Assembly (NCBI RefSeq): GCF_002160815.1
Contig: NZ_NFLH01000025.1
Span: 1-35,726 of the forward strand
Origin: Massilimicrobiota sp. An134
GTDB lineage: Bacteria; Bacillota_I; Bacilli_A; Erysipelotrichales; Coprobacillaceae
DNA length: 35,726 bases
Direction: 5' to 3'
A program made the position numbers and the translations under genes. The notes beneath the pieces were generated by a model. That model did not search any database. It was not told the origin of the DNA and saw only the letters and a list, made by a program, of their open reading frames with translations. Shown in pieces: positions 20,100-35,383 of the stretch; position 1 is the stretch's first letter; each line of letters opens with the position of its first letter.

Positions 20100-20167
20100 T
20101 ATAAGGAGAAAGACTCTAAGCATAAAGACATTTCTTTTTTCATATAAATAAACGGGTGATGATTCAT

Positions 20168-20836
20168 ATGAAAAAAATGATGTCTTTTATTATTCTTTTT
20201 GCTTTATGTACATGTTTATATAAACCAGTTATTCATGTTTCATCATCACAATTGTTAAATCAAAGAGTGATAGTTTTGGACCCTGGTCACGGGGGTTTAG
20301 ACAATGGAGCGAGTATTGCTGGAGTCGATGAAGATGAATTAAATTTGAAAATCAGTTTTGCATTGAAAGAAGAATTGGAATCACGTGGAGCAACGGTTTA
20401 TATGACAAGAACAGATGACCAGGATATGACAAGAAGAAATTATAACTATTCTAAACAGGATGATATGTATTTAAGAGCGTTAAAGATTGATGAATATCAG
20501 CCAGATTTATTTTTAAGTATTCATTTGAATTCTTCAAATTCTAGTGCCTGGGGATCACAAGTTTTTTATTATAAAAAAAGTGAGGATGGGAAAAGATTAG
20601 CTGATAGTATTCATAATCAAATGAAAACCTTAACGGGAACAAGGAAAAATATTTCATCAAGTAGTTTTTATATATTGCGTGCAACACAATCACTGGGAGT
20701 ATTGATTGAATGTGGCTTTTTATCTAATGCTAATGAAAGAGGACAGTTAAAAAGTCGCAGTTATCATAAAAAGCTGGCGACAGTGATTAGTGATGGAATA
20801 CAGGGTTACTTTCAGGCTTTATCTGCTCCATTATAA
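20168..20836 (+). CDS. N-acetylmuramoyl-L-alanine amidase (Amidase_3, CwlD-like)
   Basis: 222 residues. A signal/anchor helix (MKKMMSFIILFALCTCLYKP) is followed by the Amidase_3 domain. Zinc ligands are visible: His in DPGHGG, Glu in GVDEDELN, His in LSIHLN; the catalytic Glu is in LIECGFLSN. It cleaves the lactyl bond between peptidoglycan and the stem peptide outside the membrane. GTG 20156 and ATG 20159 are upstream in frame, but GGTGAT at 20155-20160 fits as the ribosome binding site for ATG 20168, with 7-8 nt spacing. CwlD-like size suggests sporulation cortex or general remodelling; the sporulation assignment is not proven. Confidence 0.85.
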   Translation: MKKMMSFIILFALCTCLYKPVIHVSSSQLLNQRVIVLDPGHGGLDNGASIAGVDEDELNLKISFALKEELESRGATVYMTRTDDQDMTRRNYNYSKQDDMYLRALKIDEYQPDLFLSIHLNSSNSSAWGSQVFYYKKSEDGKRLADSIHNQMKTLTGTRKNISSSSFYILRATQSLGVLIECGFLSNANERGQLKSRSYHKKLATVISDGIQGYFQALSAPL

Positions 20837-24047: not shown

Positions 24048-24079
24048 AGATAGATATCAAATGAGGAATGGTGAGGAAA

Positions 24080-25540
24080 ATGAAATTAAATGAATTACTA
24101 GATGAAATGAATTATCAGTTCATTCAAGGACATTTAGATGAGGAAGTTTCACAAATAGATTATGATTCCAGAACAGTTCAATCAGGCAGTCTATTTGTTT
24201 GTATTCCTGGCGCAAAGGTTGATGGACACTCTTTTATTGATCAGGTTATTCAAAAAGGTGCAAAGGTTATTGTGATTGAACATCCAGTGGAATATCAGGA
24301 AGGAATCACTTATTTATTAGTTGATAATGCAAGAAAGGCTTTAGCGTTACTTTCTTGTGCTTTCTTTCATCATCCAAGTCGTCAAATGAAAGTCATCGGG
24401 ATTACTGGAACTAAAGGGAAAACAACAACATCTTATATGGTGGCTTCTATTTTAGAAAAAGCTCATAAAAAAGTCGGCATTATTGGAACAATTGGTTCTA
24501 TTGTAAATGGTGAATTTAGGAAAACAAAGAATACCACACCTGAATCTTTTGAACTGCAAAAATTAATGCATGAAATGGTAGAAGCTGGTTGTGAATATTG
24601 TGTTATGGAAGTTTCATCACAGGGACTTATGTTAGACCGTGTAACAGGTATTGATTTTGATATAGGTGTTTTTACGAATTTATCACCTGATCATATTGGT
24701 GAAAATGAGCACCGCTCTTTTGAACATTATATGTCATGTAAAAAACAATTGTTTCAAATGTGTCGCATTGGTTTATTCAACAAGGATGATGAACATTATT
24801 TAGATATGATAGATCGTGCTCACTGTCAGATTCAAACTTATTCTATAGATCAGGAAAGTGATTTACAGGCTTGCAACATCAATCTTTATCGTCAAGATAA
24901 TATATTAGGTGTGACATTTGATACAAATGGTGTCATTTCAGCATCATTTCAAACGAATACACCTGGAAAATTTAGTGTCTATAATTCATTAGTCGCAATT
25001 ATGATATGTCATCTTTTAGATATAGATGTTCCTTATATCCAAGAAGCTTTAAAACAAGTCAGTGTAAAAGGACGTGTAGAAATGGTACCAGTTCCTCGTC
25101 CATATACAGTTTTTATTGATTATGCACATAATGCGTTATCTTTTGATAGTATCTTATCGACTATGAGTGAATATCATCCTCACCGTATTTATTGTGTCTA
25201 TGGATTAGGTGGACATAGAGATGTGCATAGACGTTATGGAGCTGGAGAAATTGTCGCAAAATATCATGCTTTCTCTATTTTAACAGCAGATAATCCACGC
25301 GGCGAATCAGTACAAAAAATCTGTCAGGATATTATTGAGGGGATCAATAAAGAAAATGGGGAATATATTGTTATAGAAGATCGTCAACAAGCCATTCATT
25401 ATGCTCTTGAGCATGCTGAAGCTCATGATATTATTTTGTGTCTAGGAAAAGGGCATGAAGATTATCAGATTTTGGATGAAGAACCATTACCTTTTAGTGA
25501 AAGACAAATCATTGAAGAATATTTTCAACAGGAGGACTAA
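24080..25540 (+). CDS. murE: UDP-N-acetylmuramoyl-tripeptide synthetase
   Basis: 486 residues, Mur ligase. N-terminal domain, then the P-loop GITGTKGKTTTSYM (ATP) and the conserved HIGENEHRSFEHYM, with the C-terminal domain near YGLGGHRDVHRR. The substrate motif reads DNPRGE, the form associated with meso-diaminopimelate addition in E. coli and B. subtilis; lysine-adding enzymes have a different residue at the Arg. So the third residue is predicted to be meso-DAP. In-frame ATG 24068 has a near-zero gap to its site; GGTGA before ATG 24080 is better, giving the usual MKLNELL start. Located in a run with EIIC_2 and a polysaccharide deacetylase. Confidence 0.9.
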   Translation: MKLNELLDEMNYQFIQGHLDEEVSQIDYDSRTVQSGSLFVCIPGAKVDGHSFIDQVIQKGAKVIVIEHPVEYQEGITYLLVDNARKALALLSCAFFHHPSRQMKVIGITGTKGKTTTSYMVASILEKAHKKVGIIGTIGSIVNGEFRKTKNTTPESFELQKLMHEMVEAGCEYCVMEVSSQGLMLDRVTGIDFDIGVFTNLSPDHIGENEHRSFEHYMSCKKQLFQMCRIGLFNKDDEHYLDMIDRAHCQIQTYSIDQESDLQACNINLYRQDNILGVTFDTNGVISASFQTNTPGKFSVYNSLVAIMICHLLDIDVPYIQEALKQVSVKGRVEMVPVPRPYTVFIDYAHNALSFDSILSTMSEYHPHRIYCVYGLGGHRDVHRRYGAGEIVAKYHAFSILTADNPRGESVQKICQDIIEGINKENGEYIVIEDRQQAIHYALEHAEAHDIILCLGKGHEDYQILDEEPLPFSERQIIEEYFQQED

Positions 25541-25597
25541 AAAAGACTTTTCATTCATATAGTATCTTGGTGATACATATGAAAAAAGTCTTTTTTT
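25539..25597 (+). terminator. Hairpin spanning the murE end and the next gene's start
   Basis: AAAAAAGACTTTT (25539-25551) is the exact reverse complement of AAAAGTCTTTTTT (25584-25596), with a T run to 25597. The right arm lies inside the deacetylase gene, just after its ATG. The loop holds the ribosome binding site, which is itself in a small stem (GTATC / GATAC, 25562-25566 and 25572-25576). Confidence 0.6.
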
Positions 25598-26973
25598 ATA
25601 CTTTTGTATTTTGTTTGATTGTCTTAATTGTTTATCTATTTTTACAGCCACGTATAACTTTTGTGGATAAAGAAATTCATTTAGCATTATATCAGGAAGT
25701 TGAACCGCTACAATATATTGAAAAACTTTCACATATCGAAGAAGATGAAATCAAGATTGATAATCAAGTTGATAATAGTCAACTTGGTCAATATAAAATA
25801 GTCTATTCTTATCATCAAAAAGTTTTTACTTTAATTGTTTATGTTGATGATATGTTACCTCCACAATTTGAAACACAAAATAAGACAATTTTGAAAGATG
25901 AAACAATATATGCAAAAGAATTGGTTAAAAACATTCGTGATGATTCTAAAACAGAAGTTTATTTTCAACAAAATTATACTTTTCATGAAGTGAAAACTTA
26001 TAAAGTTGTAGTTGTTGTGGAAGATAGTTATGGAAATAAATCAGAGAAAAGTGCCTATGTACAAGTTCAGGCAAAAGATGAACAGCCACCAGTAGTGAGT
26101 GGTTTGACACCCATTACATTATTGATTGGAGATGAAATTGATTTAAAAAAAGATGTCATTGTTAAAGATGATCATGATGATTCACCAGTATTAACCATTG
26201 ATGATTCTAAATTGAATATTCGTAAAATTGGTGAATATGAAGTTTATTATCATGTTAAGGATCAATCGGGTAATGAGGATACATTTATAAGAAAGATTGA
26301 AGTTTTAAGTCAATATGATAATCGTGAAGCTTTAAGTGATGGGAAGAAAACGTGTTATTTAACCTTTGATGATGGTCCATCATCAAATACCAAAGAAATT
26401 CTAGAAATTCTAGATCAATATCATATTAAAGCAACTTTTTTTGTGACAGGAACCTCCCCTAAAGATTTTCATTATATTAAAGAAGCATATCAAAAAGGGC
26501 ACACAATAGGATTGCACACATATAGTCATGATTATGAATATATTTATAGTTCTTTAAAAAATTATATAAGTGATTTAAATAAAATTAAGGATGTTGTTTA
26601 TCAACAAATTGGAATGAATGTGAATTTTATACGTTTTCCAGGTGGTTCCAGTAATCTTGTTTCTAAGAAATATAATGATGGTATCATGACACGTTTAACA
26701 AAAAAGGTTATTGATTTAGGATATCAATATTATGATTGGACTTCTATTAATGGTGATGGAGAAGGGATTAAAACGGTAGACGGTCTTAAAAAGAAAGCTA
26801 TTGAAGAAATTGGGAATCGAGAAGATATTATGTTTTTGATGCATGATAGTGGAACACAAGGAAATACTGTCAAGGCACTGCCAGATATTTTAGATTATCT
26901 CATTGAGCAGGGATATGTTTTTCAGGTATTGGATGAAACTTCTCCAACGTTTCATCATCATGTTCAAAATTAA
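25579..26973 (+). CDS. Polysaccharide deacetylase with Ig-like domains
   Basis: 464 residues. An N-terminal anchor helix (about 1-22), then two or more Ig-like/DUF5011-type segments (about 30-90 and 100-250, with repeated DxxxN, VYVDD and YYHVKDQSGNED features), then a NodB polysaccharide deacetylase domain (about 260-460). NodB motifs: TFDDGP, HTYSHD, RFPGGS, DW and LMHD. The His/His/Asp metal set is complete. It probably deacetylates peptidoglycan or another surface glycan outside the cell. The GGTGAT site at 25569-25574 fits ATG 25579. A TTG at 25567 is in frame but has no better site. Positioned after murE, consistent with cell-wall work. Confidence 0.85.
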   Translation: MKKVFFYTFVFCLIVLIVYLFLQPRITFVDKEIHLALYQEVEPLQYIEKLSHIEEDEIKIDNQVDNSQLGQYKIVYSYHQKVFTLIVYVDDMLPPQFETQNKTILKDETIYAKELVKNIRDDSKTEVYFQQNYTFHEVKTYKVVVVVEDSYGNKSEKSAYVQVQAKDEQPPVVSGLTPITLLIGDEIDLKKDVIVKDDHDDSPVLTIDDSKLNIRKIGEYEVYYHVKDQSGNEDTFIRKIEVLSQYDNREALSDGKKTCYLTFDDGPSSNTKEILEILDQYHIKATFFVTGTSPKDFHYIKEAYQKGHTIGLHTYSHDYEYIYSSLKNYISDLNKIKDVVYQQIGMNVNFIRFPGGSSNLVSKKYNDGIMTRLTKKVIDLGYQYYDWTSINGDGEGIKTVDGLKKKAIEEIGNREDIMFLMHDSGTQGNTVKALPDILDYLIEQGYVFQVLDETSPTFHHHVQN

Positions 26974-27071
26974 GAGATTTGTTTGTTATTATGTCAAAGA
27001 GTTTAGACTAAAAATAAATAAAATCGAGATAAAAACATCTCTTTGTTGTATAATAGACAAGAGGTGTTTTT

Positions 27072-27698
27072 ATGCTTTTAAATGAACAACAATATCAACA
27101 TGCATTCAATTTACTGTGTCATCCAGAACAGAAAAGTTTATTTTTATTAGAATTTGAACAATGGTTTGAGCAGGTTTTTCAATTAAAACTTTATGATTTT
27201 ATTTATGATCAGACACATGATAATCAATCCAGATTGAAACTCATATTATGGAATCATGATGATCAACAAAAAATGAAGAATGGTATAAATTTTGATGAAA
27301 CAAAGCAACAGAAAATTCGTGAACAATTCTTATTACTTTGTCAAAAACATCATATATCTACAAAGTGTCCTTCGATTATCAGTTATGATACATTGGAAGA
27401 TGAAATAAGAAAAAGAATTTTAAACCAGGTACAAAAAGAAATACAAAATATTCATAGACCATATATATGGAAAATCAAAATTATTTTTGATCAAGTTCAT
27501 GTTTTCTATAAAACAGATGAGCAATGTGAAGCTTGCCAGCAAACGGGTATATCTCAAGAAATCAATCAAAAAATCTTAGACATAGTCAAGCCATTGGATT
27601 CATTTCATGTTTTTCATGATAATTTTTCGTGTGTTTTTACCAGTCAACAGACATTGAATGAAAAATATGATGGGAAAATGTTTAATTATACAAGATAG
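27072..27698 (+). CDS. Hypothetical protein (208 aa)
   Basis: Not recognized. Soluble, acidic/Gln- and Asn-rich, with no signal or membrane helix. There are Cys residues in a CEACQQTG stretch, so one CxxC knuckle is present at about residue 152, but no partner pair is clear. A TATAAT sequence is at 27049-27054 and GAGGTG precedes the ATG. A small hairpin GAGAT/ATCTC at 27026-27041 could end the preceding transcript. It stands alone between the deacetylase and the GH1 enzyme. Confidence 0.7.
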   Translation: MLLNEQQYQHAFNLLCHPEQKSLFLLEFEQWFEQVFQLKLYDFIYDQTHDNQSRLKLILWNHDDQQKMKNGINFDETKQQKIREQFLLLCQKHHISTKCPSIISYDTLEDEIRKRILNQVQKEIQNIHRPYIWKIKIIFDQVHVFYKTDEQCEACQQTGISQEINQKILDIVKPLDSFHVFHDNFSCVFTSQQTLNEKYDGKMFNYTR

Positions 27699-35329: not shown

Positions 35330-35383
35330 TGAGCAACTTACTTTGAAGTAGCAAATATTTCAAGGCGGAAGGAGAAATGAAAA

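Follow-up and report, generated by a model that had tools for sequence, protein, structure and literature searches.

Background

Hairpins that fold over the ribosome site guard the transposase genes of IS10 and IS50, as well as lacZ, against read-through transcription. The read-through hairpin of the Bacillus subtilis sporulation gene sigG reportedly goes back to proposals by Masuda in 1988 and Sun in 1991. In a more recent account, this hairpin of 20+ bp at sigG (spoIIIG) is proposed to block translation of RNA that reads through from spoIIG, and transcripts that start at the gene's own promoter are unable to form it (PMC5942855). Compact genomes often put sporulation genes right behind growth genes, and the means by which the sporulation genes are silenced are rarely clear. 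Our literature search found nothing on the insulation of sporulation genes by terminators or on sporulation in Massilimicrobiota.

Here, we describe a polysaccharide deacetylase gene of Massilimicrobiota sp. An134 whose layout would be of the sigG type, in that the 5' arm of a hairpin lies upstream of the predicted own transcription start and the 3' arm lies over the ribosome site and start codon. The window, i.e. the whole stretch of 35,726 nucleotides that was analysed, makes up contig 18 in the 94-contig assembly of a 2.56 Mb genome.

Structure of the start hairpin

The start hairpin over the deacetylase gene, located from the sequence and its RNA fold, occupies positions 25539–25596 between murE and the deacetylase gene (Table 1). 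The TAA of murE (25538–25540) and the ATG of the deacetylase (25579–25581) are separated by 38 nt. In the fold of RNA 25520–25620, a lower stem of 13 uninterrupted base pairs (25539–25551 with 25584–25596) carries an upper stem of 7 bp and 5 bp, in which GTATC and GATAC form a small stem (25562–25566 with 25572–25576), and a 5-nt loop; the fold additionally pairs 25527–25533 with sequence outside the hairpin. The original prediction of a 13-bp perfect stem running from the murE stop into the deacetylase gene is borne out at these positions, as is its placement of the ribosome-binding site (GGTGAT, 25569–25574) within the loop and the GTATC/GATAC stem. The predicted T run is also present (25591–25597), but it does not follow the stem: most of it forms the 3' arm, and a single T lies beyond. 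Therefore, this is an A-tract/U-tract hairpin and not a stem with a free T run after it. Whereas a terminator is expected to have a G+C-rich stem and then an unpaired T run, here the stem is A+T-rich and the T run is mostly paired.

Table 1. Features of the murE–deacetylase and cwlD regions (positions in the window).
Feature	Position	Strand	Evidence
murE, upstream co-directional gene; stop codon opens the hairpin	24068..25540	+	TIGR01085 E 3.5e-136; NF001126 above its cut-off
Membrane-anchored polysaccharide deacetylase with Ig-like region	25579..26973	+	PF01522 E 3.2e-27; PF16403 E 4.5e-11
Presumed -35 region GGACTAA, lacking the ATA core of sigma-E; AC 18 nt upstream of the -10 box	25534..25540	+	
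Lower stem, 5' arm, 13 bp	25539..25551	+	RNA fold; compensatory changes in orthologues
Upper stem, 5' arm, one bulged A (25561)	25554..25566	+	RNA fold
Putative -10 box, sigma-E/sigma-K type, CATATAGTA	25556..25564	+	CATA(T/C)AGTA in 13/13 aligned orthologues; same element upstream of sporulation genes
Shine-Dalgarno GGTGAT	25569..25574	+	Invariant in 13/13 aligned orthologues
Upper stem, 3' arm, over most of the Shine-Dalgarno and the start codon	25572..25583	+	RNA fold
Lower stem, 3' arm including the T run, deacetylase codons 2–6	25584..25596	+	RNA fold; codon 4 conservation
Second hairpin of the same design, over the cwlD start	20124..20187	+	Inverted-repeat scan: 26-nt arms, 85% complementary
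Putative cwlD promoter: -35 ATA core 20122–20124, 16 nt, -10 CATATAAA 20141–20148	20122..20148	+	
cwlD, spore-cortex N-acetylmuramoyl-L-alanine amidase homologue	20168..20836	+	TIGR02883 E 1.5e-53, 181.7 bits (below the 221.55 cut-off); PF01520

The fold energy of 25520–25620 is −30.7 kcal/mol, compared to a shuffle mean of −13.26 (z = −6.1; as good in 0 of 200 shuffles). Across 403 ORFs sampled with a simple ORF caller from 398 kb of the same genome, folds of positions −50 to +30 average −9.45 (standard deviation 4.18); that of the deacetylase, at −28.6, is the strongest start-region fold and the sole one at or below −25. Chance folding is ruled out by the shuffle z-score, by the rank among the 403 ORFs and by the covariation described below.

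A terminator scan of the window, limited to loops of 3–8 nt and requiring three G-C pairs, did not list the hairpin, and no Rfam family reached its gathering score at this position. Elsewhere in the window, an L31-Firmicutes ribosomal protein leader at 35341–35374 scores 36.1 bits (gathering score 33.3). When the hairpin was searched as DNA against its own genome, the sole matches were its own place and its own reverse complement. A repeated mobile element is ruled out by this single genomic place and by other genes that share the promoter module but not the arms.

By profile comparison, the deacetylase has no equivalog match to any sporulation deacetylase model; specifically, its scores against the PdaA/PdaB models are 64.0 bits for TIGR02884 (curated cut-off 298) and 86.1 bits for TIGR02764 (curated cut-off 237.4). 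Among the gene starts that were folded, paralogous deacetylases without the promoter module have no such hairpin. A third start-region hairpin (27029–27073, −20.0 kcal/mol) covers the ribosome site of an uncharacterised 208-aa ORF at 27072, and its loop holds a TATAAT-like element; among the regions read in 11 relatives, it occurs only in G000 and G002, in which the 208-aa ORF follows the deacetylase.

Conservation and covariation among orthologues

We found 14 orthologues of the deacetylase in 43 genomes of the family, each with a co-directional gene upstream, and the hairpin is kept in 13 of them. In the 13 aligned orthologues, the upstream frame reads as murE with its stop 34–47 nt before the ATG, whereas the hairpin is fixed relative to the ATG. 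In relative G018, the deacetylase lies behind murE without a recognisable module or start hairpin (helix 0, −10.8 kcal/mol), and the place is classed as having neither a hairpin nor a terminator.

The hairpin alignment (13 rows, 12 of them distinct) has 95.3 per cent of its cells paired, compared to a mean of 93.1 per cent in shuffled controls, which keep the column make-up but not the relatedness of the rows, and to 45–69 per cent for slid structures. Four pairs changed on both sides, against a shuffled mean of 1.4 (a count reached in 7 of 500 shuffles). These changes comprise seven cells, a number that was reached in 0 of 500 shuffles, as were the percentage paired and the covariation score. 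The compensatory changes sit in the lower stem, while the upper stem and loop hardly vary (CATATAGTAT..TTGGTGATACATATG), with the -10 box paired with the start codon region in all 13 orthologues. The coding sequence is constrained as well: codon 4 is GTC, ATC or TTC in 11 of 11 in-frame orthologues (without G004 and G011, in which the conserved ATG is out of frame), whereas C-ending codons make up 115 of the 1006 V/I/F codons beyond codon 10 of the same genes. Hence, the amino acid varies among V, I and F while the pairing C is retained. The hairpin is real and under selection.

In G004 (L010) and G011 (L012), a single-base shift within the 3'-arm homopolymers puts the conserved ATG out of frame; the cause may be an error in sequencing or slippage at the A/T tracts. 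Since G004 has other broken frames, sequencing error fits there; G011 offers no such explanation.

A promoter-like module in the hairpin core

The near-invariant core of the hairpin consists of CATATAGTA, then GGTGAT, then ATG. The -10 consensus for sigma-E and sigma-K is CATA.A.T / CATA...TA, which is matched in all 13 aligned deacetylase orthologues. The two sigma factors share very similar -10 boxes, and their -35 elements are ATA for sigma-E and AC for sigma-K (PMC3789822). Counted over 12 of the 13 deacetylase rows (G002, near-identical to G000, was left out), only 4 of the 12 deacetylase promoters have ATA at 14–16 nt from the -10 box, which is close to the mean of 2.4 in shuffled sequences, compared to 7 of 11 for cwlD and 10 of 11 for dacF. 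The remaining 8 deacetylase promoters have GGACT, with AC at 18 nt, and AC at 18 nt is found in G011 as well. An AC at 18 nt is 2 nt further out than expected for sigma-K.

The -10 box starts 22–27 nt before the start codon, so that the predicted transcription start falls on the ribosome site. In the window, judging by this spacing, transcription would begin at the first or second G of GGTGAT (25569–25570).

The same arrangement is found at other sporulation genes. The pattern CATAYAGTAN{2,8}GGTGAT occurs at 33 places in 60 genomes, and its reversed form at 6. Apart from the deacetylase, it stands ahead of genes for SleB/CwlJ-type hydrolases, CwlD, a SpoVD-like protein, SpoVIF, a Germane-domain protein and DacF, although the SleB-like, SpoVD-like and CwlD-like genes score below curated cut-offs and some of the places lie within genes or ahead of unrelated genes. 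In the window's own genome, a wider module pattern occurs at 21 places, compared to 1 for the reversed pattern; 14 of the 21 precede ORFs of at least 80 aa and the other 7 do not. The genes preceded include homologues of sigK, spoVD, cwlD, ytvI, yunB, spoVIF, ymxH and sleB, several of them below curated cut-offs. A search of the relatives for the exact core returned the deacetylase places and six looser matches, including three in G025 (L076–L078), L074 and L075; the exact core is absent in G001 and G003, where it is one T longer. We take L085–L087 in G025 to be a folylpolyglutamate-synthase-like coding frame, other coding sequence or unrelated DNA, and L079, L080 and L084 likewise, judging by reading frames rather than by a family scan.

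Of the 13 genomes with the hairpin, 12 have a sigma-E homologue that scores about 300 bits, and G034 (320 contigs) has weak matches only; the cut-off of the sigma-E model is reached by none of the 60 genomes. The core probably represents the deacetylase's own mother-cell promoter, of the sigma-E/K type and with a very short leader. With a sporulation-type promoter, Shine-Dalgarno and start codon as its conserved core, the hairpin would wrap a sporulation promoter.

Two further observations concern the same genome. On contigs 10 and 57 (L296, L310), the same 33-base string CATACAAT..GGTGAT..ATG occurs twice and is followed by a 4-codon frame only, which suggests a repeated element. On contig 24 (L288:14736–16522), spoIIGA-like, sigE, sigG-like and ymxH-like frames stand in tandem, and the ymxH-like frame has an unshielded sigma-E-type promoter of its own, 25 nt behind sigG.

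Other genes and dependence on an abutting neighbour

Within the window, a second gene, cwlD, has a hairpin of this design over its start; cwlD lies 68 nt behind a MATE transporter gene. Neither this hairpin nor the putative promoter in the core of the deacetylase hairpin was part of the original prediction. The cwlD hairpin has a 23-pair helix running through the start codon (−17.0), and its T run is broken (TCTTTTATTATTC). A start hairpin is also found at dacF in five genomes of the genus, where the upstream gene encodes DUF5662. Orthologues of cwlD and dacF are each present in 17 of the 38 genomes searched, the same 17, all of which have a sigma-E homologue of about 300 bits; the module occurs in both their hairpin and non-hairpin versions. 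Family-wide, the predicted transcription start of cwlD and dacF coincides with the Shine-Dalgarno GGTGAT and their predicted leaders are ~9–13 nt long, as estimated from the -10 spacing. The genes for CwlD and three polysaccharide deacetylases of C. difficile are under sigma-E and dacF is listed under sigma-G (PMC3789822), and dacF would thus be read differently in the genomes analysed here.

We compared the deacetylase, cwlD and dacF with respect to an abutting neighbour, meaning an upstream gene on the same strand that ends no more than 80 nt from the start codon; the start hairpin was defined by at least 10 pairs through the start codon and an energy of −14.5 kcal/mol or lower, thresholds that were set after the values had been seen. 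For cwlD, 13 of 18 places were used (left out were the contig-edge places of G016 and G005, that of G011 for its in-frame stops, that of G013 for its unclear start, and a weak second place in G004); of the 17 dacF places, all but that of G005, where the contig begins 335 nt upstream of the match, entered the count. With an abutting neighbour, 23 of 30 places have the start hairpin (2 of these also have an ordinary terminator), 4 have a terminator alone and 3 have neither. Without one, 0 of 13 have the start hairpin and 5 have a terminator. The P-value of this association is 2.1e-6 (4.1e-4 without the deacetylase rows); the rows come from related genomes, and the P-values therefore overstate independence.

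The contrast can be seen within one genus: in G001 and G003, the neighbour of cwlD is more than 220 nt away, an ordinary terminator stands between the two genes, and the stem has decayed to −12.9 kcal/mol, compared to −17.0 to −19.6 kcal/mol in intact stems. Ordinary terminators lie directly upstream of the -10 box at cwlD in G015 and G041, at dacF in G041, and at the spoVD and yunB homologues of the window's genome. One gene does not fit the neighbour rule: the ytvI homologue of the same genome has a hairpin over its Shine-Dalgarno, yet no close co-directional gene upstream. At this locus (contig 4, L293), a terminator-like hairpin and the Shine-Dalgarno-covering hairpin share one arm and are mutually exclusive.

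Proposed read-through insulation around a putative sporulation promoter

In the 11 deacetylase orthologues compared, opening the region from Shine-Dalgarno to ATG costs 7.7–14.5 kcal/mol in the read-through RNA, compared to 0.6–5.3 kcal/mol in the predicted own transcript. Corresponding values in five genus members are 8.6–11.0 versus 1.4–7.3 for dacF and 8.1–10.2 versus 3.1–4.0 for cwlD (deacetylase G004 and G011 and dacF G022 were left out of the set). In the species of the window, the opening cost is 14.5 versus 3.9 kcal/mol. There, the mean unpaired probability from Shine-Dalgarno to ATG is 0.25 in the own transcript and 0.23 in the read-through RNA, so that the case for a clamp rests on the strength of the block and not on a fully open site. 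Outside messages are probably clamped at the start and own messages not. The conservation, covariation and opening energies lend support to the suggestion, made in the original prediction, that a start-site clamp limits translation. At the deacetylase and dacF, where a long T run closes the 3' arm, termination may add to the clamp.

We propose, with a probability of about three in four, that the hairpin is a read-through insulator around the deacetylase's own sporulation promoter and separates the gene from murE. This proposal builds on the observed structure, its conservation and covariation, the promoter-like module common to sporulation genes, and the dependence on an abutting gene. The 5' arm would carry the end of murE, the -35 region and the -10 box of mother-cell type, and the loop and 3' arm would carry the Shine-Dalgarno, the start codon and deacetylase codons 2–6. 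RNA reading through from murE, which we infer to be made, would contain the two arms and, by folding, conceal the ribosome site and the start codon; some of the polymerases may also terminate at the U-rich 3' arm. During sporulation, RNA polymerase with sigma-E, or possibly sigma-K, would start in the loop ~9–10 nt before the ATG and yield a translatable transcript that lacks the 5' arm. The deacetylase would thus be off in growing cells, to an extent that we infer, despite a growth gene 38 nt upstream, and on in the mother cell. The original prediction held that the hairpin ties deacetylase output to murE. Most likely the reverse applies: since a transcript started in the loop would have no 5' arm, it would form no stem, and the hairpin would cut the link to murE.

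The hairpin could instead be a plain intrinsic terminator of the murE unit, with a U-rich arm that overlaps the next gene and an incidental effect on translation. The A-tract/U-tract stem with its seven T would suit such a role, and comparable sporulation genes have, in place of a start hairpin, an ordinary terminator just ahead of the -10 box, as is the case for 4 of the 30 places with an abutting neighbour (e.g. cwlD in G015 and G041). However, an ordinary terminator needs no reach over the start codon, and the pairing of the -10 box with the start codon region holds across the 13 orthologues. Because the T run of cwlD is broken, the property that the hairpins share is the covering of the start, i.e. 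the clamp, and not terminator quality. A terminator reading is possible but fits poorly at cwlD, and we consider it unlikely that it accounts for the hairpin. Translational coupling, in which ribosomes that finish murE melt the stem, permit translation of the deacetylase and so tie the two products together, is very unlikely: the murE stop does mark the base of the stem and precedes the ATG by 38 nt, but among orthologues it drifts relative to a hairpin that stays fixed to the ATG, the same design stands behind genes as unrelated as those for the MATE transporter (at cwlD) and DUF5662 (at dacF), and the promoter module is left unexplained.

The nearly symmetric and nearly invariant core, CATATAGTATC-TTGGT-GATACATATG, could also be viewed as a DNA operator for a repressor, with the RNA fold as a by-product. 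We reject this highly improbable reading, as dacF keeps only the left half of the palindrome and changes the right half (GATTATATG, GATACGATG), cwlD differs in both halves, and the covariation lies in the lower stem, where the sequence is free to change. An RNA thermosensor or a riboswitch on the deacetylase message is scarcely credible. A start-site hairpin with a strong lower stem would be in keeping with either; but the absence of a match to any Rfam family at its gathering score, on which we reject a riboswitch or known RNA family, speaks against them, the promoter and ribosome site explain the conserved core, and the predicted own transcript lacks the 5' arm.

If insulation of a sporulation promoter against read-through is the correct explanation, silencing becomes readable from sequence, as a hairpin formed by outside messages alone. 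It would also provide a marker for mother-cell genes in poorly studied gut bacteria and suggest a role for the deacetylase on the spore envelope. Under the same condition, what has been proposed for a single gene of B. subtilis would turn into a general rule open to test, for instance by comparing cwlD genes of a single genus that have kept or lost the stem. The ATATG of the start context reads, on the opposite strand, as the CATAT of the -10 box, and a sporulation gene with a short leader could therefore fold its promoter over its start codon simply by gaining complementary flanks. We put even odds on the broader claim that these gut Erysipelotrichales employ a portable insulator for mother-cell genes that has evolved repeatedly, with flanks that are selected if a growth gene stops just ahead and are left to decay once a spacer or an ordinary terminator has arisen, for which cwlD of G001 and G003 would be an example.

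Comparison with known systems

Ordinary terminators upstream of sporulation -10 boxes in the same family occupy the same position and presumably serve the same purpose, but they end before the -10 box and leave the ribosome site and start codon uncovered, whereas the deacetylase hairpin covers both. As at IS10, IS50 and lacZ, transcripts from outside would fold over the start, and those from inside would lack the 5' arm. There the arms are supplied by the ends of mobile elements or by an operator, whereas here they would be supplied by a sporulation promoter.

The likeness to sigG is that of a sporulation gene shielded from upstream read-through by a hairpin absent from its own transcript (PMC5942855). 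The principle thus has a precedent in a single gene; what is added here is that it recurs on several genes of mother-cell type, the covariation, the neighbour dependence, and the union of -10 box and start codon region in one stem. The sigG case involves one gene whose upstream operon is itself a sporulation operon, whereas the hairpins described here are found at several unlinked genes of mother-cell type behind growth genes. Additionally, and unlike in that account of sigG, the hairpins described here have compensatory changes and pair the -10 box with the start codon region, and their U-rich arm may also terminate transcription.
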